Source: a virus
Reading direction: 5' to 3' (one strand)
DNA: 64,000 nucleotides
Virus record (IMG/VR): IMGVR_UViG_3300042922_000643
Location: 186,001-250,000 of that record
Below, one piece after another: positions 36,895-59,717 of the stretch; within the stretch, counting starts at the first letter, position 1, and each line of letters begins with the position of its first letter. A program made the translations under genes and the position numbers. Under the pieces are notes generated by a model. It was not told the DNA's origin, did not search any database, and saw nothing but the letters and a program-made list of their open reading frames with translations.

Positions 36895-36995
36895 TTGAAG
36901 GGGATTAAGAAGTTATACGCTCTTTGAACTTTCTTGTAACCAATCGCGGCTAAGGTTAGTTCATCTAAGGAGTCGAATCTTCTAATTCCCTTCAA
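36895..36995 (+). ncRNA. UUAUACG-CGAA hairpin RNA, copy 1
   Basis: TTGAAGGGGATTAAGAAG (36895-36912) pairs with CTTCTAATTCCCTTCAA (36979-36995). The helix opens into TTATACG (36913-36919) on the 5' side and TCGAAT (36973-36978) on the 3' side, with about 53 nt between. Same junction as copies at 53695, 55468, 58242, 59482 and 59610. Confidence 0.65.
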
Positions 36996-37020
36996 GAACC
37001 ATTATAAAGGAGGAATAAGA

Positions 37021-37377
37021 ATGTCATTGCTTGCGATTAGGCCCCAAAAGGAAAGACCGTTGATGCCAAAAGACTATTATAATCAGACTGCATCTTTATC
37101 CCTTAGGATGCTCTCAAATTTGTCTGACAAAATCGTATCTCTTCGCCAAGCTATGCGCGAAGTGGGTGTCAATGGAGATGCTGATGCTATCTACATTGAA
37201 CTCGACGGTACTGAACGTCTTTATTTCCATTATTTCAATCAGATGCGAATCGCAAGAGGATTTAAGCCGCTTGAAGGTGAAAAATTCTCGATGTCTCTTA
37301 GCTCTCAGCATAATCTTGATGCTATCACTGTATATGTTGACGAAGAAATTCGTTATGAATCTCTTCTTTTTAAGTAG
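37021..37377 (+). CDS. hypothetical protein, 118 aa
   Basis: ATG 37021 behind AAAGGAGGAATAAG. Helical first half (SLSLRMLSNLSDKIVSLRQA), then beta (DAIYIELDGTERLYFHYF; LDAITVYVDEEIRYESLLFK). Function unknown. Confidence 0.74.
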   Translation: MSLLAIRPQKERPLMPKDYYNQTASLSLRMLSNLSDKIVSLRQAMREVGVNGDADAIYIELDGTERLYFHYFNQMRIARGFKPLEGEKFSMSLSSQHNLDAITVYVDEEIRYESLLFK

Positions 37378-37415
37378 GTTTTACACAGTATATAAAATCC
37401 AAGGAGGAATTACTT

Positions 37416-38216
37416 ATGCCAGCTTTAGTATCGATTGAATCCGCAGGAATCCTTTCAAAAAATGCTCGTCGTGTCCCAGGAAGATCTGTTATTGACGTTC
37501 GTCCGCAAATCGGAGATCCCGTGTTTACGCCGCCGATTGAATTGGCCCTCAAACGTATGAATAATCAGATGACCCTGAACGAATTTGTAGCGGAGTATTT
37601 AGTATTCTTGAATGAATCTGTGCAATCGAATCCAAAAGTTTGGGTGAAGACACTTCGTGAAAGAGCAGTTGTTTTTGCAGGAGGTGCCTTTATTACGGAA
37701 GTTGTTTCTTTGTTTATGACGAAAATGGGCGCTCAACTGCTTGAGTCAAAAACACCTTATCTTTCCTCCGAACAAAGAGTTATGATCCTTGATTTTAATA
37801 TTACACCCCTCCCTAAAGAACCTCGGGGAAGAATGGTTGTTGATCCTCTAGCGATCAACGCTATTCAGAGTTCGACTTGCCGTACGTGCCGTGAGAACCG
37901 CTCAGCATACGCTAAGGAGGACAACAATACGTATGTGTATACTTTTGTAGATAAGAATGAAAAAGACGATACGCTGGCAACCAGGAACGTTTCCTGCTGT
38001 GCTAGTAATACGTTCGCCGATGGTATTGTTTATCAATGTCCGATATTCCAACATTTGATTGATGGCTATAAAGCAGGTGTAACCAGTCAAGGTACGAATC
38101 TTAATCCTTGTAAAAACTGTGTAACGCATATCGACAATGGTGGTAACTGCATCGGAGACAGATGTCCTGACGGCACCTTTGATATTATTCCTGGATCGGG
38201 GCTTATTCGATCCTAA
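37416..38216 (+). CDS. cysteine-rich hypothetical protein, 266 aa
   Basis: ATG 37416 behind AAGGAGGAATTAC. Residues 1-150 are a mostly helical domain. The C-terminal 115 residues are cysteine-rich: STCRTCRENRSA, VSCCASNTF, YQCPIF, NPCKNCVTH, NCIGDRCPDG. About 11 cysteines could hold two or more zinc ions or an Fe-S cluster. No signal peptide. The cysteine spacing resembles the CxxC groups of the 667-aa protein (6817). Function unknown. Confidence 0.77.
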   Translation: MPALVSIESAGILSKNARRVPGRSVIDVRPQIGDPVFTPPIELALKRMNNQMTLNEFVAEYLVFLNESVQSNPKVWVKTLRERAVVFAGGAFITEVVSLFMTKMGAQLLESKTPYLSSEQRVMILDFNITPLPKEPRGRMVVDPLAINAIQSSTCRTCRENRSAYAKEDNNTYVYTFVDKNEKDDTLATRNVSCCASNTFADGIVYQCPIFQHLIDGYKAGVTSQGTNLNPCKNCVTHIDNGGNCIGDRCPDGTFDIIPGSGLIRS

Positions 38217-38231
38217 AGGGGTTGACAAGCC

Positions 38232-38501
38232 TTGAGTAGACGATCAATACCCGTTGAGCAGCGACTTCTCCCAGGCACAATCATAGTTGTTGGGGAGAAG
38301 TTTGCTGTTAAACATGGATATGCAGGTATCATTGGAAGTATTGGTAGAATCATAAATTATGAAGAGTCAACTAGAAACTATGATTGTTATAAAATACGGG
38401 CTTCTTCAGAAGGCTTGCGGAATTATTGGTATATTCAAATAGAAGACGCCAACGAAATAGATAATCAGTCGCTTCTTTCTTTGCTACCTGATTATGAGTA
38501 G
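38232..38501 (+). CDS. SH3-like paralogue (LPDYE subgroup), 89 aa
   Basis: TTG start at 38232 behind AAAGGGGTTG. LPGTIIVVGEKFAVKHGYAG, IIGSIGRII, YWYIQIEDANE, then DNQSLLSLLPDYE. First of three consecutive copies; typical V-x-V-G...G-x-x-G...W-x-I barrel pattern. Confidence 0.78.
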   Translation: MSRRSIPVEQRLLPGTIIVVGEKFAVKHGYAGIIGSIGRIINYEESTRNYDCYKIRASSEGLRNYWYIQIEDANEIDNQSLLSLLPDYE

Positions 38502-38510
38502 GAGGATAAT

Positions 38511-38753
38511 ATGAGCTTAAAAATAGAGCCAGGAATGTCTGTAATTGTTGGCGATAAACACGCTGTATCTGAAAATTATTCTCCAGCCGTCGGATATCCA
38601 GGCAAGGTCGTACGCATTGCAACAGAAAACAGAGTTATAGTAGCAGTGGATCGGTCAGCAGGCTTAGCTAGTGGAAACTGGTTTATCAACAGTAATGACC
38701 TTATTCCTGCAAATAATGAAGTTCTTATTTCTAATCTAACTGACTATGAATAG
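38511..38753 (+). CDS. SH3-like paralogue (LPDYE subgroup), 80 aa
   Basis: ATG 38511 behind TAGGAGGATA. PGMSVIVGDKHAVSENYSPA, GYPGKVVRI, NWFINSNDLIPA, NNEVLISNLTDYE. Paralogue of both neighbours. Confidence 0.8.
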   Translation: MSLKIEPGMSVIVGDKHAVSENYSPAVGYPGKVVRIATENRVIVAVDRSAGLASGNWFINSNDLIPANNEVLISNLTDYE

Positions 38754-38764
38754 GAGGTTTCTTA

Positions 38765-39025
38765 GTGCAATCTAATAAGCGACGTCCAAACAGTCTTCCT
38801 GTAGGTACTAAGATTCGAGTAGGTTCTGCTCAATCTGATCGAGGGTGGTATCAGGAAATCGTTGGAAATGATGCAGAGATTGCTCCTTATAATCAAAATG
38901 AAACTTTCCAAGGTTTTGATTATACAATTACAATGAAAAATGGAAGTACATGGTTTATTTATGAAGTCGATGCAATTCCATTTTACAATAGTAGTCTTAT
39001 AGATATGCTTCCTGATTATGAATAA
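38765..39025 (+). CDS. SH3-like paralogue (LPDYE subgroup), 86 aa
   Basis: GTG start at 38765 behind TAGGAGGTTTC. LPVGTKIRVGSAQSDRGWYQ, FDYTITMKNGSTWFIYEVDA, YNSSLIDMLPDYE. Its stop lies immediately before a long hairpin RNA. Confidence 0.8.
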   Translation: MQSNKRRPNSLPVGTKIRVGSAQSDRGWYQEIVGNDAEIAPYNQNETFQGFDYTITMKNGSTWFIYEVDAIPFYNSSLIDMLPDYE

Positions 39026-39026
39026 A

Positions 39027-39139
39027 TTGAGCTTACTATGAACTACTTAAAGGATTTATATAGTTTGGTTTGGACTCAGGGATTTACAACCCCTCCAACT
39101 GAACCTGAATATTCTTTGAGTAGTTCATAGTAAGCTCAA
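39027..39139 (+). ncRNA. long-helix hairpin RNA (divergent UUAUA-type)
   Basis: A 29-nt arm at 39027-39055 (starting TTGAGCTTACTATGAACTAC) pairs with 39111-39139 (ending TAGTTCATAGTAAGCTCAA), with only G-U wobbles. It opens into TTATATAG on the 5' side and CCTGAAT on the 3' side, a variant of the UUAUACG...CCGAA junction. A second fold (GCGATT...AATCGC, 39149-39220) follows in the same gene-free stretch. Confidence 0.6.
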
Positions 39140-39270
39140 ATGGATTTATAAGCGATTTTATTCTCTTGCCTGAATGGTAGACTCCAAGGAGCCAATGCCT
39201 TAGAGAGCGTGGAATCGCTGAATATCTGTTTGTAGCTTACTACCTAATATGAAACGGAGATGAAGTAAAC

Positions 39271-39819
39271 ATGACACAAAGTAGGGTAACATCGACCAGT
39301 AATGTTGTCATGACGGCGGAACAACTCCAGATTGCTGAAGAAGCATTGAGTCAAACTGTACGTCAGGGAACCATGAAAGTGGATGACGGAACTCCTCAGT
39401 TCGCGCCGACAATTAAACCCACTACCTTAGTACTGGAAGGCGCTCCACAGCGTCAGAACAGGGATTCTAAGTGGTATTTGAACCGCGAAGGGGAGTTATC
39501 CGTCGTAACAAACGAAGCCTCTAATGAGGCGCTGGGCATCCTTGAATTGCGTGTATCCAATGCAACAGAAAATCAGCAAGCCTCGGGAATTCTTTGCAAG
39601 GTTTCTATGAATTCACTAGTCGGATGGGATTATGGTATCAGCATTTTTGAATCCAGAAATGAACCTGGTGCAATCTACCTTCGGACAGACGGCAGCCGTG
39701 AAATCGGTACAGACTCCCGCGGTAAAAAGGAATACTACCGTCCTCGGCAATTGAACAACGCAACAGAAGCTCAAATTTTGAGTTTCGTATCGAAGTTCTT
39801 GAAACCACGTCAACAGTAA
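39271..39819 (+). CDS. hypothetical protein, 182 aa
   Basis: ATG 39271 behind ACGGAGATG. N-terminal helix (MTAEQLQIAEEALSQTV), then a beta-rich domain with WYLNREGELSVVTNEAS, GWDYGISIFE and IYLRTDGSREIG. A C-terminal helix follows. No family recognised. First gene of the run leading to the conjugation module. Confidence 0.75.
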   Translation: MTQSRVTSTSNVVMTAEQLQIAEEALSQTVRQGTMKVDDGTPQFAPTIKPTTLVLEGAPQRQNRDSKWYLNREGELSVVTNEASNEALGILELRVSNATENQQASGILCKVSMNSLVGWDYGISIFESRNEPGAIYLRTDGSREIGTDSRGKKEYYRPRQLNNATEAQILSFVSKFLKPRQQ

Positions 39820-39870
39820 AGACCTCAAGGGGAGGGGTTAAACTCCCTCTCCAAAAGGAGGCTATCATAT

Positions 39871-40185
39871 ATGATTTTTGATCCTGGCAGTTTAATTGTT
39901 GCATTAGAAAATCCCTATACCATCACCAAAGAAGGGACAATTTGGACTGTTCTTTATACTTACACAACAAAGACCTTAGAAGATGCTATGATTGTTACAA
40001 GCCCAACGAATATCACAGCTATTCAACATTATAAAAAATCCATAGAAGTAAATCCTAAAGTATTCCCAATAAAAGGGGAATGTAAGGAATGCTATAGTGT
40101 TCTTTCTCGTTATTTTACTCAACTGAACGTCTTTAATAATGAAGAATCCTTAGTTTTTCTACAAGATTTAGAATTGGAGGTGTAA
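39871..40185 (+). CDS. SH3-like paralogue with signature tail, 104 aa
   Basis: ATG 39871 behind AAAAGGAGGC. PGSLIVALENPYTITKEGTI, WTVLYTY, and an FNNEESLVFLQDLELEV ending. Ends with TTGGAGGTG serving the metallo-beta-lactamase gene. Confidence 0.74.
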   Translation: MIFDPGSLIVALENPYTITKEGTIWTVLYTYTTKTLEDAMIVTSPTNITAIQHYKKSIEVNPKVFPIKGECKECYSVLSRYFTQLNVFNNEESLVFLQDLELEV

Positions 40186-40187
40186 AA

Positions 40188-40964
40188 ATGACACAAGCAA
40201 TCAATGGGACTTTTGAGCTTGTGATGCTCGGAACAGGCTCCATGCAGGCAAATAACTATTTCAATAATAACGCTTTGTTGATGTCTACCGATTACACTCT
40301 AGCAATAGATTGTGGAACGACTTTTAAGCAAGCGTTATGCGAATTGGGTTTCAATTATGCAGATATCGATGGCATATTGATTACCCATATTCACTCTGAT
40401 CACGTCGGCGGCCTTGAAACACTCGCCTATGCAGGAAGATATGAACTCGAACGTAAGTTTGATTTAATCGGTGATTCTGAAATGATCAAAGAGCTCTGGG
40501 ATAGCACTCTTAAGGGTGGTCTTGAGCTCACCGCTGAAGGCAGAATGACGATCAACGATTATTTCAATGTTATTGAGCTTCCGAGAGATACTGAAAAGAT
40601 CATTGGCGGTTATGCTCTTGAGCTTTTAAAAACACCTCATGTTCCTCAAAAGGTGAACTATTCGGTATTCATCAATCGAAATATCTTCTATTCAGCAGAT
40701 GTCCGCTTCGATGAAAAGCTTGTTTATCACGCCTTGGAAGAAAGAAAATGTACATTAGCTTTCCATGATTGCAATTTTGGCGATCCGACAGTCGTTCATG
40801 CTTCTTTTCAAGACTTAGCAACATTGCCCCGTGAAGCCCAGCAAAGAATTTATTTGATGCATTACGGTGACAATGTTGAAGATTTCTACGGTCAAACGGG
40901 TGAAATGTCTATTCTTGAACAAGGTGTTTTTTATAACATCGTCAATGGTGTAATTACAAATTGA
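40188..40964 (+). CDS. metallo-beta-lactamase fold hydrolase, 258 aa
   Basis: ATG 40188 behind GGAGGTG. Signature THIHSDHVGG (H67, H69, D71, H72) with preceding LAIDCGTTF strand. HVPQKVNYSVFINRNIFYSA and LAFHDCNFG supply further metal-site positions. The SMQANNYFNNNALL opening is typical of the RNase Z / MBL-fold branch. Stand-alone MBL proteins have been reported beside some bacterial E1/E2/JAB operons, so this could belong to the module starting at 44474; RNA cleavage is the alternative. Confidence 0.88.
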   Translation: MTQAINGTFELVMLGTGSMQANNYFNNNALLMSTDYTLAIDCGTTFKQALCELGFNYADIDGILITHIHSDHVGGLETLAYAGRYELERKFDLIGDSEMIKELWDSTLKGGLELTAEGRMTINDYFNVIELPRDTEKIIGGYALELLKTPHVPQKVNYSVFINRNIFYSADVRFDEKLVYHALEERKCTLAFHDCNFGDPTVVHASFQDLATLPREAQQRIYLMHYGDNVEDFYGQTGEMSILEQGVFYNIVNGVITN

Positions 40965-40982
40965 AAGTGAGGCGCTGAAAAA

Positions 40983-41810
40983 ATGTTTATTGCAGGTACT
41001 CAAGTCTATTATGTTGAAATTCGTCAGGGCAGCAAGGTTAAACGGATTGTTCTTCCTATGGAAGACGGCATCTTGGACAAGCTGAAGGCTTTCCTTTCAG
41101 AGTATCCTTATCTGTTTCATGCTCGGCAAGGTGAAGCGCAAGTGACTTCTCACGAAGTTGCAAATCCACCTGCTGTGATTTTTGATAATCTCCACTTCAA
41201 GGCAGATCATATCATTAATGCAACAATGTATGGTCATCCCGACATTCCATCAGGCACTCTTCGCTATTCTGCGGAATTGATTGCCGCGATTCAGGCGATG
41301 CAGCCGCTAAAATCACAGGTTGTTGAGGAAGAAGTAAAACCTCTTACTCCTGATGAAGAACTTCGGTTGAAGCTTGCAGGTCAACAGAGTGAAGCAGCTC
41401 AACAACAAGAAAAATCCAGTGTTCAGACAGTTGCTCCAGCGAAAGAGCCTGTAGTTATTCCTCCGCCAGCACCATCTGGTGAAGATCAGCTTAGACGCCA
41501 GCTCGAAGAAGCAAAACAAAGTAGGGTTTTTACCCCTCAGGCAGGCGCTGCTGGACAGGTTATACCTCATACTCAACAAGAAGCAGGTTCCGAAAGAAAG
41601 GTTTCAACGTACGCTTCAGTTAATGACGTTATCGATATTCTCGGAAGAATGAGTACGAAGCTTGATTTCGTGGTTGCTATGAGCAGTTTGCCTGCTGGTA
41701 ACCTGACAGGAAAAGAACTCTCAGTTTGGTTTGCGAAATCAACTGTTGAGCACGGCTACGACAAAACGTTTGAAATTTTGGCTTTGAAACTCCAAGGAAA
41801 GTTGGAATAG
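40983..41810 (+). CDS. modular protein with EDQLRRQLEEA motif, 275 aa
   Basis: ATG 40983 behind GTGAGGCGC. Residues 1-100 form an alpha/beta domain. Residues 105-205 are a disordered Pro/Gln/Ala linker containing SGEDQLRRQLEEAKQSRVF, similar to SLEDQL-K/R-AA units in the 559-aa protein downstream. The C-terminal 65 residues are a helical domain (VNDVIDILGRMSTKLDFVVA). The shared linker motif suggests both proteins bind the same partner. Function unknown. Confidence 0.78.
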   Translation: MFIAGTQVYYVEIRQGSKVKRIVLPMEDGILDKLKAFLSEYPYLFHARQGEAQVTSHEVANPPAVIFDNLHFKADHIINATMYGHPDIPSGTLRYSAELIAAIQAMQPLKSQVVEEEVKPLTPDEELRLKLAGQQSEAAQQQEKSSVQTVAPAKEPVVIPPPAPSGEDQLRRQLEEAKQSRVFTPQAGAAGQVIPHTQQEAGSERKVSTYASVNDVIDILGRMSTKLDFVVAMSSLPAGNLTGKELSVWFAKSTVEHGYDKTFEILALKLQGKLE

Positions 41811-41813
41811 CCG

Positions 41814-42221
41814 ATGAATGATAACACGATTCAATTGATTAGGGACTATGTGGATCAAATATCCGCTTCCCTGGGTGTTGCCGCTGAAAAGGTCTTTGAG
41901 GCCTTGATGCGGCAGCAAATGATCGAAGGTGTAATGGGTATTATCGTTAAGTTGGTATTGTTTATTTCAGCCATTGTCGCTTTCAAATTGTATTATCGCT
42001 ATGTCTTTACAATGTATCTGAAGAATAAAGAAGCAGGTAAATACGACTACTTGGATGAAGGACCTATCTTCATATGTGTAGGCCTTGCGCTTTCAATCGT
42101 TTTTATCTTCGTCACTTTCTTAATTTTGATCTTGAATTTGACAACGCATTTAACTCAAATCCTCAACCCTCAATATCATGTATTGAAAGATCTTCTTTAT
42201 ATGGTAACGGGGAAACAATAA
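41814..42221 (+). CDS. membrane protein, 135 aa
   Basis: ATG 41814 three bases after the previous stop. Two membrane segments (IVKLVLFISAIVAFKLYYRY; GPIFICVGLALSIVFIFVTF) with an amphipathic N-terminal helix. Sits between two proteins that share a linker motif, so may anchor them. Function unknown. Confidence 0.74.
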   Translation: MNDNTIQLIRDYVDQISASLGVAAEKVFEALMRQQMIEGVMGIIVKLVLFISAIVAFKLYYRYVFTMYLKNKEAGKYDYLDEGPIFICVGLALSIVFIFVTFLILILNLTTHLTQILNPQYHVLKDLLYMVTGKQ

Positions 42222-42237
42222 AACTTTTTGTTATATC

Positions 42238-42266
42238 TTGGCAAGTACCTTAAAGTCAAGTATACT
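42238..42266 (+). promoter_or_regulatory. sigma-A-type promoter
   Basis: TTGGCA, 17-nt spacer, TATACT. Five of six consensus bases in each box, in the gap before the 559-aa gene, followed by a structured 150-nt leader. Confidence 0.75.
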
Positions 42267-42269
42267 TAA

Positions 42270-42420
42270 AGGAGGCGAGGAAGATGTAATCCTTCAGGTA
42301 ACAACTAGATTAATTCTAGTATGCAAAATACATTTGGGCTAAAGGTCGCTAGTATTAGGGGCGGCCCAGCATGGCTTGAGGGGATTAGGGCTATGCACAA
42401 AATAATCATCTTGAGGAGGA
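42270..42420 (+). promoter_or_regulatory. leader with start-stop ORF and structured RNA
   Basis: AAAGGAGG and then ATG-TAA (42284-42289) directly after the promoter. The rest includes CTAGATTAATTCTAG (hairpin) and several GGC/GCC stems before the SD GAGGAGG of the next gene. Possible attenuation region. Confidence 0.45.
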
Positions 42421-42426
42421 TGATGT

Positions 42427-44106
42427 ATGTCCTGGAAAAAAGTAAGTGACATCGTAAAAGACAGCCTGATTGATTTGAGGGGTGTCGAGTACAAGGTGAT
42501 CGAGAACAAACATTCCGATCTTCTTGTGGCTAAAGTCAGTAACCCTGCATTCGTACTCAGCTTAGAGACACTGATTGATATCGTTCAAAATGACGACTGG
42601 GAAGGATCGGCACATGAGATTTACGTGAAATCCGAACCCAAACCGCAGATTCCGCAATATACCGCGGCAAGAAAGCCAGGCGTTCAAGAGGACTTTGTTC
42701 ATTCAGAGATTCAATCTCGGTTTGCAGCCAAAGGCCCTTCGCTTGAAGATCAGCTGAAAGCTGCAACAGCAGGTACGACACCAGAACGCAAGGTATTTGC
42801 AACTGCCGTAGCAGGTCCAAGCCTTGAAGATCAACTCAGAGCAGCTAGAACCGAATCTGGAATCTCAGAAGTTCGTTCCCAGCTTGCTGGAGTTGGTGTC
42901 CAAGCAGCTTCGGCAGCACAGGGCGTTGCAAGGGTTGATCAGGCCGTTGAAAAGGTGGCTAAGCTCAATTCAGAACGTCACTACAACGTTCAAGGCCAGA
43001 TGTCTCGTGTAGAAGGCTCTGTTCGTAATGTCCAGAATCAGGCTACCGAGCTTAGCTGGCATGTGCAAAGCGTGCAGGACGATGTCGAAAACGTGGTGGA
43101 ACGCGTAAGTTCCTTAGAGCATCAGGCGCTCGAAGCCAGAATCAATCAAGACCTGAACACCCAAAAATCGGCGAAAGCCCAAGGAGGAAATTCTATGTCT
43201 ATCAAAAAATTGCTCGGTAACTTCACAGGTCTGTTCGGTAAGGTCGAAGGTCAGTTCGCTTATTCCCCAGCTGGTCTGGCAGTTCGTAAGAACCCTAACG
43301 AATACGGCTCCAACTGGATCGTATACGATGCTAAAACTCGCTCCCTGACTGACGTTCAAGACTTGGTTCTTGACTTCAATATCCCTGCATTCCAGCTGCC
43401 TGTCACTGAAGACGCCGTGAACGAAGGCGACATCATCCTGAACAACGGTAAATTCCAGTACGTTGTTGAGATCAATGATGGATACGTGAAAACGATCTCT
43501 CCTTCCGACAGCTCGTACAGCAGCGTTATCCCTACCCGTAACCAGTTCCTGAACAAAACGTTCTACACTACGGTGAAGACGCTTAGTCTGGCTGGCGAAG
43601 GTGGATTCGATCCGATGTTGCTGATGGCTATGAACAAAGGCGGCGACAAGCAAGATCTGCTTCCATTCCTGCTCATGAGCGGTGGACTGGGCGGTAATGG
43701 CGCAGCTGCAACTGGCGGCATTGATCCAATGATGCTGGCTCTGATCGGTGACAACACCGAAGACTTGCTTCCATTCCTGCTTCTGCAACAGGGCGGCGTG
43801 GCTGACAAAGGTATCAATCCTTTGATGCTGCTTCTGATGACTGACAAAGGCGGCGACTCGAAAGATAGCCTGCTTCCATTGCTCTTGATGGGTGGCGGTC
43901 TTGGTGGAGCTGGTGGCGCTCAAGCAGGTGGTATCCAGTCGATGCTTCCGTTCTTGCTCATGAGCGGTGATAAAGGCGGAGACAGCGGAATCAAAGACAT
44001 CTTGATGATGCAAGCACTGGGCGGTGGCGCTGGTTTCGGTAACCTCTTCGGTGGTACAGCACCAGCTGCAACTCCAGTAACTCCAGCGGCTCCAGCGGCT
44101 GAGTAA
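42427..44106 (+). CDS. modular coiled-coil protein with Leu/Met/Gly repeats, 559 aa
   Basis: ATG 42427. Residues 1-65 are a small SH3-like domain; 75-150 a linker with two SLEDQL motifs; 150-250 a coiled coil (VRNVQNQATELSWHVQSVQD). About 260-395 is a beta-rich domain, and 395-545 a repeat region. There, GGxDPMLL/INPLML segments alternate with DLLPFLLMSGG-type segments and glycine runs (at least four rounds). An in-frame SD and ATG (43195) would release the 303-aa C-terminal half alone. The repeats look like stacked hydrophobic helices with Gly linkers. Function unknown. Confidence 0.83.
   Translation: MSWKKVSDIVKDSLIDLRGVEYKVIENKHSDLLVAKVSNPAFVLSLETLIDIVQNDDWEGSAHEIYVKSEPKPQIPQYTAARKPGVQEDFVHSEIQSRFAAKGPSLEDQLKAATAGTTPERKVFATAVAGPSLEDQLRAARTESGISEVRSQLAGVGVQAASAAQGVARVDQAVEKVAKLNSERHYNVQGQMSRVEGSVRNVQNQATELSWHVQSVQDDVENVVERVSSLEHQALEARINQDLNTQKSAKAQGGNSMSIKKLLGNFTGLFGKVEGQFAYSPAGLAVRKNPNEYGSNWIVYDAKTRSLTDVQDLVLDFNIPAFQLPVTEDAVNEGDIILNNGKFQYVVEINDGYVKTISPSDSSYSSVIPTRNQFLNKTFYTTVKTLSLAGEGGFDPMLLMAMNKGGDKQDLLPFLLMSGGLGGNGAAATGGIDPMMLALIGDNTEDLLPFLLLQQGGVADKGINPLMLLLMTDKGGDSKDSLLPLLLMGGGLGGAGGAQAGGIQSMLPFLLMSGDKGGDSGIKDILMMQALGGGAGFGNLFGGTAPAATPVTPAAPAAE
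43181..43197 (+). promoter_or_regulatory. internal in-frame ribosome binding site and start
   Basis: AAGGAGGAAATTCT before in-frame ATG 43195. Codon bias becomes strongly optimal downstream, as in the 10087 case, supporting use of this start. Confidence 0.65.
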
Positions 44107-44122
44107 GAAAGGTTGATGTGTC

Positions 44123-44299
44123 TTGGGCGAGAAGGAACTTCGGCAAGCTGCTAGAGGGATGTATAAAACCGCTGAACAGATGAAGATGCTCAGACTTGCC
44201 CAAGAAGGCACATTGGCTCAGTATCTTCTCAAGAAAGAGTTCAGCAAGATGCAACGCAAGATGAATGCCAAGGTCCGCAAGGCTCTTGGTATCAAGTAG
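44123..44299 (+). CDS. small basic helical protein, 58 aa
   Basis: TTG start at 44123 behind GAAAGGTTGATG. All-helical and basic (ELRQAARGMYKTAEQMKMLR; KKEFSKMQRKMNAKVRKALG). Followed by a strong terminator. Function unknown. Confidence 0.65.
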   Translation: MGEKELRQAARGMYKTAEQMKMLRLAQEGTLAQYLLKKEFSKMQRKMNAKVRKALGIK

Positions 44300-44312
44300 T
44301 CGAACCGACGTC

Positions 44313-44356
44313 GGGGCTCCTTGAAGTGATAAAGACTTCGGGAGCTCTCCTTTCTT
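44313..44356 (+). terminator. Rho-independent terminator
   Basis: GGGGCTCCTTGAAGT pairs with ACTTCGGGAGCTCTCC, then TTTCTT. It separates the repeat-protein unit from the ubiquitin-like module. Confidence 0.82.
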
Positions 44357-44446
44357 AAAGTGACTAGATGAGGATGATGGCTGCGGGTAGGGGCAAGTTG
44401 GCTTGCTGTGTAATCTAGTTATTATTCATTCGTTTTACCCAAACCA

Positions 44447-44468
44447 AAACCCAAATTAGAGGAGTGTT
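44447..44468 (+). promoter_or_regulatory. conserved leader with ribosome binding site, type B
   Basis: AAACCCAAATTAGAGGAG followed by TGTT. Almost identical to 2835-2858. It gives the tandem ubiquitin-like gene a strong start. Confidence 0.55.
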
Positions 44469-44473
44469 GCATT

Positions 44474-44839
44474 ATGGCACGCACAGTACACTACGGAACT
44501 AACAAACCTTTCACTATCTTCGACGACAAACTTTCTATCGAAGACATCAAGAAGACTATGGCCGATTATTTCCCTGAAGTTGCAAACGCTACGGCACGCG
44601 TCGAAGGCGACAACATTTACCTGGAAGTGAAGGCTGGTACGAAAGGTTCGGGACCACGTACTGTTCATTACGGCACTAACAAGCCGTTCACAATCTTTGA
44701 CGAAAAGCTGTCGATTGAAGACATCAAGAAAACCATGGCTGACTACTTCCCTGAAGTAGCAAACGCCAGCGCTCGGGTTGAAGGTAACAACATCTACCTG
44801 GAAGTGAAAGCAGGCACTAAAGGCCTGATCTTGGCCTAA
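44474..44839 (+). CDS. tandem ubiquitin-like protein, PRTRC system protein C type, 121 aa
   Basis: ATG 44474. Two units of about 55 residues (4-58 and 63-117), each TVHYGTNKPFTIFD, SIEDIKKTMADYFPEVANA, NIYLEVKAGTKG. The layout FxYNG..L.DP..S...V...YA..YPEL..A...Y.F....GTKG is that of PRTRC protein C, a predicted beta-grasp ubiquitin-like protein. The units differ at only three residues although many synonymous sites differ. Unit 1 ends GTKG then a SGPR linker; unit 2 ends GTKG then LILA, so both need proteolytic exposure of glycine. Heads the E2/JAB/E1 genes. Confidence 0.85.
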   Translation: MARTVHYGTNKPFTIFDDKLSIEDIKKTMADYFPEVANATARVEGDNIYLEVKAGTKGSGPRTVHYGTNKPFTIFDEKLSIEDIKKTMADYFPEVANASARVEGNNIYLEVKAGTKGLILA

Positions 44840-53528: not shown

Positions 53529-54368
53529 ATAATCATCTTCCTCTTTTACGTAACCTGAGCTAGCACTTTGATGCTGCTCAGCTTGAAGGATATAACGTTT
53601 ATACAGTGTTTTCGCTATAGACCGTTGACGCCTTAGCTGCTGAGGTTATATGCGATGTACGGCACTCGAAGACCTTGCATCCTTCAAGCTGAGCGAAGAA
53701 GATTATACGACGTGCTGAAGAGTAGCCATATCCGACGCCTGAGCGAACAGGGGCTAGGCTTTGAAATCCCCTGACTCCTAAGACATTAGCGTCCGAATTC
53801 TTCTCCCCAGCTTGAAGAGTATAAGTGGTAGTAGGCCTGGAAGCAGCCATCTTAAGAGTGGGACAGCGGCTATAACTTGCTCCGTGACACTGGGCTAACT
53901 CGGGTAGCGGATAAAAGCATTTTATAGAGAGGAAATAAGGAGGCACCCCGTAACTGGTAAGGCCGACCTTTCCCTTTAGCGTAATAGCACACCATTTATA
54001 CTTTTCAAGCTGTTTGGGGAACAGCAATCGTCTATTTCCAGAAAATCAGCCTCTATCATGAGGGAGGAGAGAAATCTCCTCCACAGCTTGAAGCTCCCAA
54101 GTTAAATAAAATAGTCGTTCAAATCGACGGCGTGGGTTATCCTCGCCAGCCATTGGAGGCACTTGGGAGTTACAAGCTGTGGGAACACAGCAGCAGGAAG
54201 ATGTGAGCAACAGGGTTCTAGCCAGCTGACCTGGTTAGACGCGTATCGGCGGTGGTTATCCAGCGTGCGAGACACAACCAAACCAACTTGACATTGGTGT
54301 TACCTTAGGCAGGTACAAGAACCAACGTATAAGCGAATAACGGTTGACACCTTACGATAGTCACATCT
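53529..54368 (+). ncRNA. giant multi-hairpin non-coding RNA candidate, about 840 nt
   Basis: No credible ORF. Long helices in order: ATAATCATCTTC (53529) with GAAGAAGATTAT (53695); GCTCAGCTTGAAGGAT (53576-53591) with its perfect complement (53679-53694). Then CAGCTTGAAGAGTATAA (53808) with TTATACTTTTCAAGCTG (53996-54012), and CCACAGCTTGAAGCTCCC (54081) with GGGAGTTACAAGCTGTGG (54165-54182). Finally AGATGTGA (54199) with TCACATCT (54361). Three helices share the word CAGCTTGAA. Size, ornateness and proximity to tRNA-like genes recall the GOLLD/ROOL classes of large phage RNAs; no sequence identity is claimed. Confidence 0.65.
53695..53803 (+). ncRNA. UUAUACG-CGAA hairpin RNA, copy 2 (inside the giant RNA)
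   Basis: GAAGAA (53695-53700) pairs with TTCTTC (53798-53803). The junction is TTATACG (53703-53709) and CCGAAT (53793-53798). The 5' arm is the same segment that can pair upstream with ATCATCTTC, giving two exclusive folds. Confidence 0.5.
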
Positions 54369-54443
54369 AACATACTCCTTTGGATATTTCCTTTCGGAAA
54401 TTCGGAAAAGTCTCTGCTTCCTGCTTTATTTTAATATTCTCTA

Positions 54444-54469
54444 GGGGGACACATGGTGTGTCCTCTTTT
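54444..54469 (+). terminator. Rho-independent terminator
   Basis: GGGGACAC-ATG-GTGTGTCC followed by TCTTTT, 75 nt after the last helix of the giant RNA. Confidence 0.8.
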
Positions 54470-54494
54470 CCATTTCTATAAGGCGGTGATATTT

Positions 54495-54890
54495 ATGAAT
54501 TACCTTGATCCACGAGAAGGAAAAGAAATCACAGGTAGTACGGGGGAAATCCGCGTCAGACTCGTTGGTGGATCATTTCATGAATCTGCCTTTGCTACTG
54601 TTAAAGAGGGGGACGAAGTTACCCTTCAAAAAGAACCCAAAAATAAATATGACAGATATGCTATTGTAGTGCTCTCTGAAAATAACCGTGTTTTGGGTTA
54701 TATTGCCAATAGAGTAGAAACTATTGGGAGAAACAAAGCAACAAATTCCGCAGCGGATGTATATAGACATATCAACGATAGAACATCAGCTATCATAATT
54801 GATAAGAGTCCAAGCTCTGCCGTACTTTTGATTAATGCTTCGAATGAAGTTTTTTTAAATAGATTAAAGGAGGAGAAGTTCGATGATTAA
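54495..54890 (+). CDS. stand-alone HIRAN domain protein, 131 aa
   Basis: Start at ATG 54495 behind AAGGCGGTG; the frame upstream lies in the terminator. Residues 18-75 match the HIRAN domain: VRLVGGSFHESAFATVKEGD, VTLQKEPKNKYDRYAIVVLS, NRVLGYIAN. HIRAN domains recognise 3' ends of single-stranded DNA in HLTF/Rad5-like remodelers and also occur alone in bacteria and phages. Likely role: sensing stalled forks or processed DNA ends. Overlaps the next gene by 8 nt. Confidence 0.86.
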   Translation: MNYLDPREGKEITGSTGEIRVRLVGGSFHESAFATVKEGDEVTLQKEPKNKYDRYAIVVLSENNRVLGYIANRVETIGRNKATNSAADVYRHINDRTSAIIIDKSPSSAVLLINASNEVFLNRLKEEKFDD

Positions 54891-55176
54891 TTCTAGATCA
54901 TCTTCTTTAGTAGAATTAATAGAGATGTCTCTCTTAGCTAATCACGAAATTCTAGTTCTTTTATCTCGTAACTCTGGTTTTAGTTCACAAGCTGGAGAAA
55001 AAGAAGTAGGTCGTATTTTAAAATCTATTGGTTATATGAACGAACCTTGGTTTAAAGTTGAATGGAGCATCAGAAGAACTACCAACAATTATCCATTAGA
55101 GGATCTTATCATTATTTCTTCAACGGACTTTAATAATGAAAATCTTTCTAAGATTTATCTTAGAGATATGGATTAG
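54883..55176 (+). CDS. signature-tail paralogue (VLLSRxS subgroup), 97 aa
   Basis: ATG 54883 behind AAAGGAGGAG. HEILVLLSRNSGFSSQAGEK, VGRILKSI, WFKVEWSI, YPLEDLIIIS, then FNNENLSKIYLRDMD. Closely related to the next product. Confidence 0.8.
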   Translation: MINSRSSSLVELIEMSLLANHEILVLLSRNSGFSSQAGEKEVGRILKSIGYMNEPWFKVEWSIRRTTNNYPLEDLIIISSTDFNNENLSKIYLRDMD

Positions 55177-55190
55177 GAGGTTCGTTCTAT

Positions 55191-55472
55191 ATGATTACAG
55201 AAGAAATTATTTTAAGCCATATTCGTCATGGAAAAGTGATAGAAGTTTTGCTATCTCGATATTCTGAATACGCTGAACAAGCAAAAGAAGATGAAATCGG
55301 AAAAATTACTGGCAAACTGGATGATGATGGTGATCTTGAAGGTATATGGTTTCAAGTCGAATGGGATTCAGGCGATGTGAATTATTATCATTTATCAGAT
55401 CTGATTTTCATTAATTTTTCTACGGATAATTACAGTATGCTTTCTCTTCTCCAAGATATCGACGACGTATAA
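55191..55472 (+). CDS. signature-tail paralogue (VLLSRxS subgroup), 93 aa
   Basis: ATG 55191 behind TAGGAGGTTCG. GKVIEVLLSRYSEYAEQAKE, IGKITGKLDDDG, WFQVEWDSGD, YHLSDLIFIN, TDNYSMLSLLQDIDDV. Its stop codon is inside the closing helix of the next RNA element. Confidence 0.8.
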   Translation: MITEEIILSHIRHGKVIEVLLSRYSEYAEQAKEDEIGKITGKLDDDGDLEGIWFQVEWDSGDVNYYHLSDLIFINFSTDNYSMLSLLQDIDDV

Positions 55473-55612
55473 AGTAAAGTCACAATAGGATTTATACGCT
55501 TCGATATAGTCAAGACCCGTAGTCTATTACTGGGTTGAAGCCACGTAACCTTCCATCGGAAACGTGGCTGTCTATAAATCTGCCGAAGATCCTATTGTGA
55601 CTTTACTTTATA
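55468..55612 (+). ncRNA. UUAUACG-CGAA hairpin RNA, copy 3
   Basis: A perfect 24-bp helix: 55468-55491 (TATAAAGTAAAGTCACAATA and on) with 55589-55612. It opens into TTATACG (55492-55498) and CCGAAG (55583-55588). Inner hairpins are ACCC...GGGT and GCCACG/CGTGGC. It ends 17 nt before the RNA-repair gene start, so it may control it or be processed by RNase III. Confidence 0.75.
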
Positions 55613-55629
55613 ATAAGGTGGGAACATTT

Positions 55630-57789
55630 ATGAGAACGTTAGTCCTTACTCGTGGTATAATGGCTTCTTCAAAATCAACATGGATTGCTGAAAATGGTCT
55701 TGCACCTTTTACTTTATCTAGTGATAACTTGCGTCTACTCCATTCTGCTCCACAGCTTCAAGAAGATGGCAAGCAGGTAATAGCGGGATCGCAAGAAGGT
55801 AAGATCTGGAAACTTTTATTTGAAGTTTTGGAGCGACGTATGCAAAACGGCGATTTTACCGTCATTGATGCAACACATATTACTTCGAGTTCCATTTCTG
55901 AGTATCGTGAACTGGCTAATAAATATCGTTATCGCGTGTTTGTAGTGGATTTTACTAATGTTCCTTTGGAAATAGCTTTAGAGCGGAATAAAAATCGTGA
56001 AGAATATAAGTATGTTCCAGAACATAAGATTGAAATAGCTTATGCTAAGCTTTCAGAAAATCATGTGCCTTCTTATGCGAAAGTTATTAAACCAGAAGAA
56101 TTCTGGGATCATGTTTCATATACAAAAATTGATTACAGCTCTTATCGCAAAATTCATCATATCGGGGATGTTCATGGATGCTACAGTGCATTAATGACTT
56201 ACCTTTCAGGCGAAATGAAGGAAGACGAGTTGTATATTTTTGTTGGTGATTATCTAGACCGCGGCATTCAGAACCGCGAAGTTTTAGAATTCCTCATTCA
56301 GATTAAAGACCTTCCAAATGTTATTCTTCTTGAAGGTAATCATGAAACTCATCTTCGCAAATGGTCAATGGATGAAACCGTTAAAAGTTTAGCATTCAAC
56401 CACTATACCGAAAAAGAGATTCATGATGTTAATAAGTCCGCTGTTCGTGAACTGTGCAGAAAGTTCAGACAGGTTTGTTATTATGAATATTACGGCAAAA
56501 CAGTGCTCGTCACTCATGGAGGCTTATCCTGCATTCCAAACGAACTTGCTTTGATCTCGACTTCTCAATTTATTAAAGGAGTAGGAAATTATGAAGTTGA
56601 TATTGATGCTATTTTCTCGGCTTCTGAACAAGATGGAACGTACCAGGTCCATGGTCATCGCAACATCTTCAGACTGCCTATGCAAGCCGCTGAGCGTTCT
56701 TTTAACCTGGAGGGTAGAGTTGAATCAGGAGGAGACTTAAGGGCTCTTACACTAACTCCTGAGGGGTTTCAAGAGCATTGTATCCAGAATCATGTTTTTA
56801 CAACAGAACATTCTCCAATGCCTCCCGTTGTAGGTTCCAAAACAACTACAGACAATTTCATTGAATACCTTCAGTCACACAAAATGGTTAAAGAAACACA
56901 GATAACTGATCATATTTCATCTTTTAACTTTACACGTAAAGCATTCAATAATGGCGTTTGGGATACGCTTAACATCAAGGCTCGCGGCCTTTTTGTGAAT
57001 AAGCATACTCGAAAGATCGTTAGCCGATCTTATGATAAGTTTTTTAATATTGACGAAGTTCCAGCTACAAAGATGGGAACATTAGCCAATACCCTGGAAT
57101 TTCCTGTGATTTTGTCAGAAAAACCGAATGGATACCTAGGTATTATCGGGTATGATGAGGAGACAGATGAACTGATCTACTCTTCCAAGTCTGAAACTCG
57201 TGGTACTTATGCGGTATCATTCAGAAAACTTTTCGAAGAAAAAGTTCCTGTTGAAATACGTGCTTGGCTTAAAGGATATCTTTACGGAAATGACGTGTCG
57301 ATAACTTTTGAGGTTATTCTTCCACAAGAAGATCCACACATCATAGAATATAAAGAGAATACTTTGATCTTACTCGATATTATCCAGCGAAATGTTCAGT
57401 TCCAAAAGAGATCTTATTCCGAGGTTGTTGAGCTCGCAATGAATCTTCTTCTTCCATATCGTAAAATCAAATATGTCTTCCATAACTGGTTAAGTTTCTA
57501 TCACTGGTATCAAAACGCATCTCAAGATTATTCTGTTAAAGAAGAAGGGTATGTCCTTGAAGATAATTCAGGTTTTATGACAAAGATAAAATTACCGTAC
57601 TATCTTTTCTGGAAGCAAATGCGTACAGCAAAATTCCAGGTGAAGATGGAGGGCTATATGCTTCCTCAGTGGTTGCCGCCAATTCCTGACGATCTTAAAA
57701 ATTTCGTTGGGTGGGCTAAACAGCAAGATCAGGAGTATTTGAAACGCGTGGATGTTATCCAGTTGCGTACAGATTACGAGGGCTCTTAA
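55630..57789 (+). CDS. trifunctional RNA repair enzyme: 5' kinase, phosphatase and RNA ligase, 719 aa
   Basis: Start at ATG 55630 (AATAAGGTGGG upstream); a longer frame runs through the RNA hairpin. Residues 1-165 are a P-loop polynucleotide kinase, with an unusual loop RGIMASSKSTW in place of G-x-x-G-x-G-K-S/T. Residues 175-390 are a calcineurin-type phosphatase: HHIGDVHGCY, FVGDYLDRG, LLEGNHETH, VTHGGLSC, VHGHRN. Residues 440-719 are an ATP-dependent RNA ligase: FNxxARGLF-like start (IKARGLFVNKHTRKIV), KFFN, nucleotidyl Lys498 in VILSEKPNGYLG. The order matches bacterial Pnkp, the ligase part is T4 Rnl1/tRNA-ligase-like. Heals and seals broken RNA, e.g. tRNAs cut by host anticodon nucleases. 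Confidence 0.9.
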   Translation: MRTLVLTRGIMASSKSTWIAENGLAPFTLSSDNLRLLHSAPQLQEDGKQVIAGSQEGKIWKLLFEVLERRMQNGDFTVIDATHITSSSISEYRELANKYRYRVFVVDFTNVPLEIALERNKNREEYKYVPEHKIEIAYAKLSENHVPSYAKVIKPEEFWDHVSYTKIDYSSYRKIHHIGDVHGCYSALMTYLSGEMKEDELYIFVGDYLDRGIQNREVLEFLIQIKDLPNVILLEGNHETHLRKWSMDETVKSLAFNHYTEKEIHDVNKSAVRELCRKFRQVCYYEYYGKTVLVTHGGLSCIPNELALISTSQFIKGVGNYEVDIDAIFSASEQDGTYQVHGHRNIFRLPMQAAERSFNLEGRVESGGDLRALTLTPEGFQEHCIQNHVFTTEHSPMPPVVGSKTTTDNFIEYLQSHKMVKETQITDHISSFNFTRKAFNNGVWDTLNIKARGLFVNKHTRKIVSRSYDKFFNIDEVPATKMGTLANTLEFPVILSEKPNGYLGIIGYDEETDELIYSSKSETRGTYAVSFRKLFEEKVPVEIRAWLKGYLYGNDVSITFEVILPQEDPHIIEYKENTLILLDIIQRNVQFQKRSYSEVVELAMNLLLPYRKIKYVFHNWLSFYHWYQNASQDYSVKEEGYVLEDNSGFMTKIKLPYYLFWKQMRTAKFQVKMEGYMLPQWLPPIPDDLKNFVGWAKQQDQEYLKRVDVIQLRTDYEGS

Positions 57790-57802
57790 GAGCCCTTTCT
57801 CT
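57780..57802 (+). terminator. terminator overlapping the stop codon
   Basis: GGGCTC-TTAA-GAGCCC then TTTCTCTT. The TAA stop is in the loop. Confidence 0.75.
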
Positions 57803-57816
57803 TAGGAGGTGAGACC

Positions 57817-58236
57817 ATGTCATATCATTACTATACAACCTCAACAACTTCGACAACTTATAGTGGTTATTACAATACAAGTCAAAGAAAGAAAGCTGCT
57901 AAAAAACACAGACCCTTATCAGAAGAGTCAGAATTACTATCCATCATGATATCCGACAAATTAAAAAGGAATAAGGAAGTATTCATAAGCCTTAAAATGG
58001 ATACCCGTATTTTAAGGGATTTGAATAGGGTCTCTGGGGGTACGATAAATCAGACAACTGTTTTAAAAGTACTCGGTGTTTACGTGAGTTCCTTTGGAAA
58101 TCATAGCGTTATTACTCAGCATCCTGACATTTTAGCAGGAAGAGATATTAAAATATCTTTTTGTGATTTGGAACCAAAATTTGTAAATGAATTCGATACG
58201 GAAGATATGTTAATCATACTTCCTGATTTTGAATGA
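57817..58236 (+). CDS. signature-tail protein with Tyr/Ser/Thr-rich N-terminus, 139 aa
   Basis: ATG 57817 behind TTAGGAGGTGAG. Residues 1-25 are low-complexity (YYTTSTTSTTYSGYYNTSQR), then a basic stretch, a helical/beta middle, and the tail FDTEDMLIILPDFE. Function unknown. Confidence 0.76.
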   Translation: MSYHYYTTSTTSTTYSGYYNTSQRKKAAKKHRPLSEESELLSIMISDKLKRNKEVFISLKMDTRILRDLNRVSGGTINQTTVLKVLGVYVSSFGNHSVITQHPDILAGRDIKISFCDLEPKFVNEFDTEDMLIILPDFE

Positions 58237-58241
58237 AGAAT

Positions 58242-58362
58242 CGCCTAATCAAAAGAGCATACTTATTATACGAACTGATTTGCCTGCCCTCGATGGAGGG
58301 TCGCTGACAGTAAGTCGTTGTGCTTACCTGTTCCGAAGTAAGTATGTTCCTTTGATTAGGCG
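58242..58362 (+). ncRNA. UUAUACG-CGAA hairpin RNA, copy 4
   Basis: CGCCTAATCAAAAGAGCATA (from 58242) through 58265 pairs with 58339-58362, a near-perfect 24-nt helix. Junction: TTATACG (58266-58272) and CCGAAG (58333-58338). Inner hairpins CCCTCGATGGAGGG and GTAAG/CTTAC. Confidence 0.72.
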
Positions 58363-58376
58363 CATATGAGACATCT

Positions 58377-58700
58377 TTACTCATGCTGTTAAGAGATGGC
58401 AGCCTTCTCGTAGGTCTATCCTCCGAGGAGTACGAATCGGCTTCGTATCGCGTGTTATGTGAACAAGTCGGCTGGCGTGGTGTGCTGGCTTAATTGAATA
58501 CCCCAAGTTGCCACATGCGTAAAGAAAGATCTGAGAACCTAATCACGGTGAGGTTATAAGGACCTAGAGCCATACTTGAGCTAATCCCAGGGAACGTAAT
58601 TCGAGACGGAAGTATGGAGAGAGCGATCTCCAGAACCCAAGATCGTAAATCGTAGACGGACGAGGCCATGTCATTACTCAATGTGGTCCTGAATCCTTGC
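58377..58700 (+). ncRNA. structured non-coding region before the tRNA-like genes
   Basis: Gene-free. Hairpins include CATCT/AGATG (58382-58410), ACGAA-TCGGC-TTCGT, AACCT/AGGTT, CCATACTT/AAGTATGG (about 58569-58617) and GGAC/GTCC near 58660-58690. It looks like one folded transcript with the following tRNA-like genes. No family recognised. Confidence 0.45.
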
Positions 58701-58721
58701 CAAAAAACTTTTTCGCTGATG

Positions 58722-58795
58722 ACAAGATTAACTCAGTTGGTAGAGTAGCCGCCATTATTGGAGGTCAGTCGCAGGTTCAAGTCCTGCATCTTGAA
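58722..58795 (+). tRNA. tRNA-like gene 1, isotype uncertain
   Basis: Acceptor ACAAGAT/ATCTTGA (6 of 7 pairs), D arm ACTC-AGTTGGTA-GAGT and T arm GCAGG-TTCAAGT-CCTGC are canonical. The anticodon arm is odd: CCGCC/GGAGG with one mismatch leaves a 6-nt loop ATTATT, or an 8-nt loop if the top pair is open. No clear anticodon can be read. CCA is not encoded. Confidence 0.55.
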
Positions 58796-58821
58796 AGTGG
58801 CGAAACATAAGTCAGTATTCC

Positions 58822-58893
58822 GCAGGTATAGCTCAGAGGTAGAGCGGGGCCAGGTTGCTGGTCATGTCGCGGGTTCGATCCCCGTTATCCGTG
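58822..58893 (+). tRNA. tRNA-like gene 2, isotype uncertain
   Basis: Acceptor GCAGGTA/TATCCGT (one mismatch), D arm GCTC-AGAGGTA-GAGC, T arm GCGGG-TTCGATC-CCCGT. The anticodon stem GGCCA/TGGTC leaves a 6-nt loop GGTTGC, the same irregularity as its neighbour. CCA not encoded. Confidence 0.55.
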
Positions 58894-58947
58894 GAATGCT
58901 GATGCTTTTAAAAAATTTACAGCAAGAGGTATTTTCTTCTTGTTTTC

Positions 58948-58977
58948 TTGCCAATTATTGTTTATATTATCTATAGT
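58948..58977 (+). promoter_or_regulatory. sigma-A-like promoter with overlapping dyad
   Basis: TTGCCA, 18-nt spacer, TATAGT. TATTATCT and AGATAATA form an inverted repeat around the -10 box, a possible operator. It lies upstream of the gene at 59030. Confidence 0.5.
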
Positions 58978-59029
58978 GAAAATGTAGATAATATCTGGGC
59001 AGGAAAGTAAACCAAGGAGCTGACACATT

Positions 59030-59449
59030 ATGATTAAGAGATTGCGACCTTTTGTAACTTCTTTCAGCGAAGCCATCATGTCCCAGCACACACATGGGGA
59101 AGAGGTATGCGTTGGTGGAGAAGTTAAACATGTGCTCGACGGCTCCCTATTCCTGAGTGAAAAGGATATGGAAGACACAAATAAGGACCCAGGCGTTTAC
59201 TTGAAACTAGACGACGGGGTTGGCTTTAATTATATCGTAGCACCTAAAATCGTTTGCGAACGGTTTGAAAAGGAACATGGTCCCTTACAAGGAGCTGTTG
59301 TCCTTGCCGTTGGCAAAATAATGGAGCTCGACATGAGGCAGGAGAAAAAAAGAAATGTTACGTTTACGGACCATCCAGAAAAGACCAAGCGCGTGGCTGC
59401 GTACTATCTCGGCCTTGTCCCTGAGCTTAATGAAGAAACTGGTGATTAA
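59030..59449 (+). CDS. OB-fold-like protein next to the replicase, 139 aa
   Basis: ATG 59030 behind AAGGAGCTG. Core VCVGGEVKHVLDGSLFLSEK, GVYLKLDDGVGFNYIVAP, GAVVLAVGKIMELD has the beta pattern of an OB fold. The position just upstream of DNA polymerase III alpha suggests a replication accessory such as a single-strand-binding or RNA-binding factor. Assignment is by pattern only. Confidence 0.68.
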   Translation: MIKRLRPFVTSFSEAIMSQHTHGEEVCVGGEVKHVLDGSLFLSEKDMEDTNKDPGVYLKLDDGVGFNYIVAPKIVCERFEKEHGPLQGAVVLAVGKIMELDMRQEKKRNVTFTDHPEKTKRVAAYYLGLVPELNEETGD

Positions 59450-59481
59450 GGAGGGGTATTCCTCTCCTTGATTATTGGTTG

Positions 59482-59595
59482 TATAGATATTAAAAGAAGC
59501 TTTGATTTATACGCGAATGACTGCTGATGCCTCCCGATGCGAGGTTTGAGACGTCGATAATTTGCCGAAGATCAAGGCTTCTTTTAGTATCTATA
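59482..59595 (+). ncRNA. UUAUACG-CGAA hairpin RNA, copy 5
   Basis: A 25-nt arm (59482-59506, starting TATAGATATTAAAAGAAGCT) pairs with 59571-59595. Junction TTATACG (59507-59513) and CCGAAG (59565-59570), inner hairpin CCTC/GAGG. Confidence 0.75.
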
Positions 59596-59609
59596 TCCAT
59601 GTTGTTTCC

Positions 59610-59717
59610 TTGAAGGAAAAGAGAAGCTATACGTAGGCCGTATACTAGAGGCAATTCGTCCACCGTTGGTAGCGGGAGTATATATCTTTATCTGCCGAAA
59701 CTTTTCTTTTCCTTCAA
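59610..59717 (+). ncRNA. UUAUACG-CGAA hairpin RNA, copy 6 (CUAUACG variant)
   Basis: TTGAAGGAAAAGAGAAG (59610-59626) pairs with CTTTTCTTTTCCTTCAA (59701-59717). Junction CTATACG (59627-59633) and CCGAAA (59695-59700). It lies directly in tandem with copy 5 and just upstream of the replicase gene. Confidence 0.72.

Follow-up and report, generated by a model that had tools for sequence, protein, structure and literature searches.

A conserved internal loop between freely varying helices recurs ten times in a probable giant phage genome and may mark a shared recognition or processing site

Orphan structured RNAs have been described in phages, and several known systems offer points of comparison for a motif that recurs in a 64,000-nucleotide (nt) stretch of viral DNA (the window), i.e., bases 186001–250000 of the 251,543-base IMG/VR virus record IMGVR_UViG_3300042922_000643. 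Like the copies analyzed here, the RNase III sites of phages T7 and SP82 are intergenic hairpins that recur in the same direction as the phage genes, and a paper listed among the references of PMC12502629 concerns cleavage of SP82 early mRNA by Bacillus subtilis RNase III. ROOL and GOLLD are phage RNAs that often lie near tRNA islands (PMC12286853). The 11-nt GAAA receptor has the sequence CCUAAG/UAUGG, as implied by mutant names in PMC11381326. The record itself most likely derives from a giant tailed relative of Bacillus phages, since the window DnaE and capsid proteins are 57% and 70% identical to those of Bacillus phage vB_BauM_KLEB27-3, the nearest named relative found, and the DnaE proteins of three long virus records (G001, G010, and G011) are 61, 54, and 52% identical to that of the window. 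We found ten places in the window where an internal loop is conserved between helices of unrelated sequence. Our favored though tentative reading is that these ten copies are one RNA module, i.e., a shared recognition or processing site carried by otherwise unrelated phage RNAs.

An earlier note on this DNA had listed seven sites (copies A to G). Reading and folding the sequence placed all seven where it had put them, with the junctions it had given; its list was nevertheless incomplete, as three more copies occur at 53575 (H), about 39140 (I), and 58547 (J). Copy H, with a score of 18 for the outer helix (P1), came from scanning for UAUA..GAA with a flanking helix, and copies I and J from relaxed scans. 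The ten copies, in order along the window, are:

36891–36999, + strand: copy A, a 17-pair outer helix; core UUAUACG (from 36913) / UCGAA (to 36977).
39027–39139, + strand: copy B, divergent, with a 29-pair P1, directly after a stop codon; core UUAUAUAG / CCUGAA (to 39109).
39140–39231, + strand: copy I, new, in tandem with copy B; core UUAUAAGCG (TATA at 39147) / CGCUGAA (to 39222), junction UAUAAG/CUGAA; P1 of about six pairs if the P1 of copy B forms too.
53575–53695, + strand: copy H, new, within a noncoding region of about 900 nt; core UUAUACAG (TATA at 53600) / CUCGAA (to 53670), junction UAUACAG/CUCGAA.
53695–53806, + strand: copy C, with a short P1; core UUAUACG (TATA at 53704) / UCCGAA (to 53797).
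55468–55612, + strand: copy D, with a weak P2 and a 26-pair P1 into which the stop codon of the preceding gene falls; core UUAUACG (TATA at 55493) / GCCGAA (to 55587).
58242–58362, + strand: copy E; core UUAUACG (TATA at 58267) / UCCGAA (to 58337).
58547–58701, + strand: copy J, new, with a 7-pair P1; core UUAUAAGG (TATA at 58555) / CCUGAA (to 58693), junction UAUAAG/CCUGAA.
59481–59596, + strand: copy F, with a 28-pair P1; core UUAUACG (TATA at 59508) / GCCGAA (to 59569).
59610–59717, + strand: copy G, with a 17-pair P1, directly upstream of the DnaE frame; core CUAUACG (TATA at 59628) / GCCGAA (to 59699).

All ten copies share one register and an identical topology: P1, a position at which Y faces D, UAUA on the 5' side facing GAA on the 3' side, one further position, a second helix (P2), and a variable domain. 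The register was aligned by hand, because MAFFT misaligned several of the full copies. UAUA and GAA are present in every copy, and the Y/D position is U.G in four (D, E, F, and H), U.U in five (A, B, C, I, and J), and C.A in copy G. The position inside UAUA/GAA is C.C in seven copies (A, C, D, E, F, G, and H), U.U in B, and A-U in I and J; B, I, and J constitute a variant that lacks C.C. In the seven C.C copies, UUAUACG and CGAA each supply one of the two facing C bases, and P2 starts one position on; pairing of CG with CG, leaving a bulged pyrimidine, is an alternative register for these same copies. The first position of P2 has a purine on the 5' side and a pyrimidine on the 3' side throughout (seven G-C, one A-U, one G-U, and an A.C mismatch in copy B). 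The core, bounded by helices of free sequence, has about a dozen positions, of which seven are invariant.

This core partly resembles the sarcin-ricin (bulged-G) internal loop, which has the consensus AGUA/GAA. The two loops share GAA on one strand and UA on the other, and sheared A.G and U.A pairs would be possible; in contrast to that loop, the copies have UAUA in place of AGUA and, in seven cases, C.C in place of the Watson-Crick closing pair. The inner domains of the ten copies have no sequence in common, and for this reason a ligand-binding riboswitch, an option that the earlier note had kept open, is unlikely.

We used a descriptor ([TC]TATA .. GAA, P1 score of at least 6, P2 of at least 4, 25–160 nt) to compare the window with shuffled sequence. 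On the + strand it returned ten matches, i.e., nine of the ten copies and one place inside an open reading frame at 34265; copy D (55468) was missed owing to its weak P2. There were no matches on the – strand, and 60 dinucleotide shuffles gave a mean of 0.22 and a maximum of 1, counts on which we reject a chance origin. UAUA/GAA with a P1 score of at least 13 occurred at six distinct places in 3.07 Mb scanned (overlaps included), all of them within the window, and the next best score was 12. The helices, not the bare letters, make the case for the motif: TATACG..CCGAA without a helix was not enriched in the whole record (five forward and four reverse matches, vs. three and four for a reversed-pattern control). 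Six of the eight inverted repeats on the + strand of the window with at least 16 pairs and 40–161 nt between the arms contain the motif, the exceptions being those at 24951 and 53808. The former (24951–25033) is a 19-pair repeat in a short intergenic gap.

The pairing of the two arms was assessed in an alignment of ten rows. Of 110 cells, 92.7% pair, compared to 52.9% after shuffling, and sliding the partner by one to three columns lowered pairing to 40–49%. All 11 pairs show two-sided changes, with 33 further pair types, which bears out the earlier view of a conserved junction between freely changing helices. The count of two-sided changes is the weakest of these measures, having been reached by 20 of 500 shuffles, and the covariation in P1 is not independent evidence, since P1 pairing entered the selection of most copies; P2 was part of the selection in the later scans only. 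P1 contains 16 G-U pairs (permitted by the search) compared with six A-C and 14 other mismatches, and the excess of G-U over A-C therefore favors RNA of the + strand. A covariance model built from the joined arms was useless, as only copy A was real among its three matches.

No described family accounts for the copies. With Rfam 15, the window yielded only one group I intron and two tRNAs, and a permissive scan of 36800–60000 to an E-value of 5 gave only sub-threshold matches at the copies (e.g., MIR1513, 31.6 vs. 95 bits). We reject a known Rfam family, since no match at a copy reached the gathering threshold. GOLLD and ROOL, both taken to have Rfam models, were not matched in the scans of the window. 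A search of the open-access literature with general terms returned nothing on this motif. The earlier note had recognized no named class, and of the two outcomes that it thought would speak against a new fold, i.e., a lack of covariation or a match to an Rfam family, neither occurred. Its interpretation is supported in part, in that two-sided changes and the lack of an Rfam match bear out the conserved junction; of the ribozyme, protein-binding, and riboswitch-like options that it offered, the last is unlikely. It is possible, if somewhat doubtful, that the motif represents a new RNA class, in which one loop would be used at least ten times in one giant phage, either as the core of a new self-cleaving ribozyme or as a common tag for recognizing, cutting, or protecting unrelated RNAs, including noncoding RNAs that flank tRNAs.

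All copies lie on the strand of the surrounding genes, between clear genes or in noncoding regions. A and D occur singly, B and I, H and C, and F and G form pairs, and E and J occupy the two ends of one noncoding stretch of about 480 nt. With respect to upstream genes, copy B directly follows a stop codon (39027), the P1 of copy D contains one (55468), and copy E begins at most 6 nt from one (58242). With respect to downstream genes, copies A, D, I, and G end 18–40 nt before the next start (37021, 55630, 39271, and 59735, respectively); the start at 55630 was chosen from its match to relatives, the longer mechanical frame beginning at 55564. Copy A, upstream of the gene at 37021, is preceded by a hairpin with a T run that was seen in the fold and is absent from the terminator scan list. 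Long noncoding regions hold the copies H, C, E, and J, with E at the 5' end of the 480-nt stretch, which precedes tRNA-like genes, and J directly upstream of these genes. The region that holds H and C is as follows:

53516–54452, + strand: large structured noncoding region with copies H and C; further helices pair 53808–53829 with 53991–54012 and occur near 54085–54178.

Its fold (53559–54452) was unusually stable (z = –7.4, 30 mononucleotide shuffles), whereas the E/J stretch (58237–58757) was unexceptional as a whole (z = –2.0). At 58712–58910, two tRNA-like genes score 41 and 37 bits with the Rfam tRNA model, and ARAGORN calls one of them, with an aberrant two-base anticodon. In the fold, additional helices (8 and 13 pairs) enclose them, and for that reason they look like tRNA-like domains of a larger RNA.

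We favor a shared site of recognition through which RNA ends would be cut or protected, because the topology is constant and most copies lie at gene boundaries. The module would consist of a free-sequence duplex P1, often long, and a conserved non-canonical internal loop (Y-UAUA-C / C-GAA-D), followed by P2 and the variable domain. The copy regions would be transcribed, and the same trans-acting factor, presumably a host or phage nuclease or an RNA-binding protein, would read the loop at all copies. Unrelated phage RNAs would in this way be marked for one common fate at gene boundaries, most likely either cutting or protection of their ends, and mRNAs and noncoding RNAs would be released and stabilized as separate units. 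The single topology, with no permuted copy in the window, is as expected of a site that is read with P1 as its outer helix. Ten uses of one junction, in RNAs that are otherwise unrelated, amount to a replicate experiment built into a single genome, as any actor should act at all ten; looking for a new phage system of RNA processing, RNA packaging, or ribozyme action would thereby become directly testable.

Several observations weigh against such a site. Transcription of the copy regions and any cleavage at the loops are predictions from the sequence, and the covariation and conservation come from copies within one genome, homologous loci not having been found. Imposing the shared register on trimmed copies cost stability relative to the free fold in all copies but B (equal), by 1.3–3.0 kcal/mol in eight copies and 8.1 kcal/mol in copy H. 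Such a deficit is partly expected because non-canonical pairs earn nothing in the energy model, but that of copy H is a real weakness. Around the copies, promoter-like sites occurred at chance level (16 vs. 15.9 and 5 vs. 5.0 expected) and terminator-like sites were not in excess (6 vs. 8.1 and 1 vs. 2.7 expected). The search for a partner yielded no candidate, since the RNase III family was not detected in the virus record at the sensitivity of the search, and neither the TROVE/Ro60 nor the NusG family was found (E ≤ 0.001, in one record that is possibly incomplete). Ro60/Y RNA, a phage RNase III, and phage NusG antitermination are accordingly unlikely, no gene for them having been found in the record. 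The processing sites of T7 also look different: about half of ten folded T7 segments, taken at what we presume to be the site positions, share a helix sequence (CUCAAGGUC .. GGCCUU) and a simple hairpin. In the copies of the window, unlike in T7, conservation is confined to the loop, the helices and inner domains having no relation to one another, and no shared helix sequence of the T7 type occurs.

Cleavage by a double-strand RNase of the host is a related explanation that we consider quite unlikely. Here an RNase III-type enzyme would cut the long P1 duplexes, with the internal loop positioning the cut, as in T7 and SP82 mRNAs. Six of the ten copies fit this explanation, being intergenic hairpins with an uninterrupted run of 17 to 29 pairs (G-U counted), as does the published cleavage of SP82 early mRNA; copies C, I, and J, in contrast, have only six to nine contiguous P1 pairs beside the loop, and SPO1, taken as a relative of SP82, has no convincing copy of the motif (two weak places). 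RNase III would not need an invariant loop, which counts against it here. The conserved loop might instead dock RNA helices within or between phage RNAs, as a tertiary-contact or assembly module like the cage contacts of GOLLD and ROOL, a possibility that we judge unlikely. The window shares with these RNAs a large structured noncoding region, partly next to tRNA-like genes: H and C lie in the highly structured region of about 900 nt, and E and J in the 480-nt region. The core also resembles the 11-nt receptor, in that the strands CCUAAG/UAUGG and CCGAAG/UUAUACG are similar, with U.G at the outer position in four copies (the receptor sequence again being that implied by the mutant names). Unlike the receptor, the copies have a longer 5' strand, G for U, and the C.C position; none of the ten contains the exact receptor sequence, and matching GAAA loops were not found in number, with one clear GAAA hairpin seen by eye in the folds (no count was run) against ten receptor-like loops. 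Unlike GOLLD and ROOL, moreover, the motif has no Rfam match and also occurs in single intergenic elements of about 110–145 nt. Copies A and D are such small elements, the 480-nt region is not unusually stable, and a docking loop does not require a single fixed topology. Kissing loops between copies were rejected, given that no complementary 5-mer occurred among 14 hairpin loops (shuffled mean, 1.1).

That the copies are a new small self-cleaving ribozyme, with the conserved loop as the catalytic core and free helices as in other nucleolytic ribozymes, seems improbable. A core of this size between free helices is what such a ribozyme would show; nevertheless, the Rfam ribozyme families were unmatched at the copies, circular permutations were not found in the window (there is one weak place elsewhere in the record, L092 356), no feature marks a cleavage site, and a P1 of up to 29 pairs would keep the cut ends together. 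An element acting as DNA, i.e., a cruciform or single-strand hairpin for a recombinase or replication protein, is highly improbable. Long inverted repeats with conserved unpaired bases would suit it, yet all ten copies have one orientation, with no descriptor match on the other strand, and their outer repeats are unrelated to one another. This strand bias and the excess of G-T over A-C in P1 (16 to 6) make a DNA element unlikely.

We also searched for copies outside the window. With the descriptor, the rest of the record, excluding its last 3.5 kb, contained two weak places only (scores 7 and 6), and the whole genomes of KLEB27-3, SPO1, G001, G010, and G011 contained no convincing copy (4, 2, 0, 2, and 2 weak places, respectively, with P1 scores of at most 8). 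Two weak places were found in parts of an Alicyclobacillus phage, Goe11, phage K, and a Moorella phage, two, both of one sequence, in 16 short capsid loci, and one, with a score of 10, in the records G005 and G007. A pattern scan of viral contigs (four stretches) and genome contigs (16), which covered the single sub-pattern GAUUUAUACG..GCCGAAGAUC with 40–70 nt between, gave no P1 score above 5 among the 19 stretches re-read. In a helix-only scan of the relatives, the best chance places scored 12 (G010) and 11 (KLEB27-3), below the six strongest copies (P1 scores 17 to 25) and above A, C, I, and J (8, 6, 9, and 7, respectively). These four copies thus rest also on P2, position, and register. 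Relaxing the core to CATA with other 3' letters gave a place with a score of 16 in G010 (L167), which lacks UAUA. Searches with blastn of ten noncoding stretches against the relatives returned chance-level matches only (E-values of 0.12 or worse). For 36000–60000, a near DNA search in phages found no homologue, and for 53515–59735 a distant DNA search matched a kinase/ligase-type gene only. Two neighboring genes, used as single-protein queries, found no relative, and neither did the capsid protein among the genome contigs.

The relatives do contain noncoding regions of their own. KLEB27-3 has a 1.1-kb stretch without annotated genes at 117.4–118.5 kb (L103 42155–43262), about 1.6 kb from two tRNA genes, where the only Rfam matches are tRNAs. 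G001 has a structured noncoding region of 1 kb at 135.5–136.7 kb (L154 16700–17900), with three similar stems (TTCTATTTATC .. GATAAATAGAAATTAAG) and no Rfam match. In G010, G011, and the virus record G012, a conserved noncoding region of about 600 nt lies 2–3 kb upstream of DnaE (L168 6661–7300; L171 7531–8166, 96%; L167 7505–7987, 73% over 396 nt); it has no Rfam match and no similarity to the noncoding stretches of the window.

The kinase/ligase-type gene (55630–57789) adjoins copy D. The relatives of its product carry annotations as RNA ligase, polynucleotide kinase, or phosphatase; identity is 47.7% to a protein of an SPbeta-like phage and about 40% to proteins of Staphylococcus phages, and as a single-protein query the product matched one virus record at 39%. 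Any connection of this gene to the motif would be speculation. The group I intron, at 62357–62786, scores 50.1 bits against a gathering threshold of 50 and apparently interrupts the DnaE gene, whose two halves match adjoining parts of the G001 gene.

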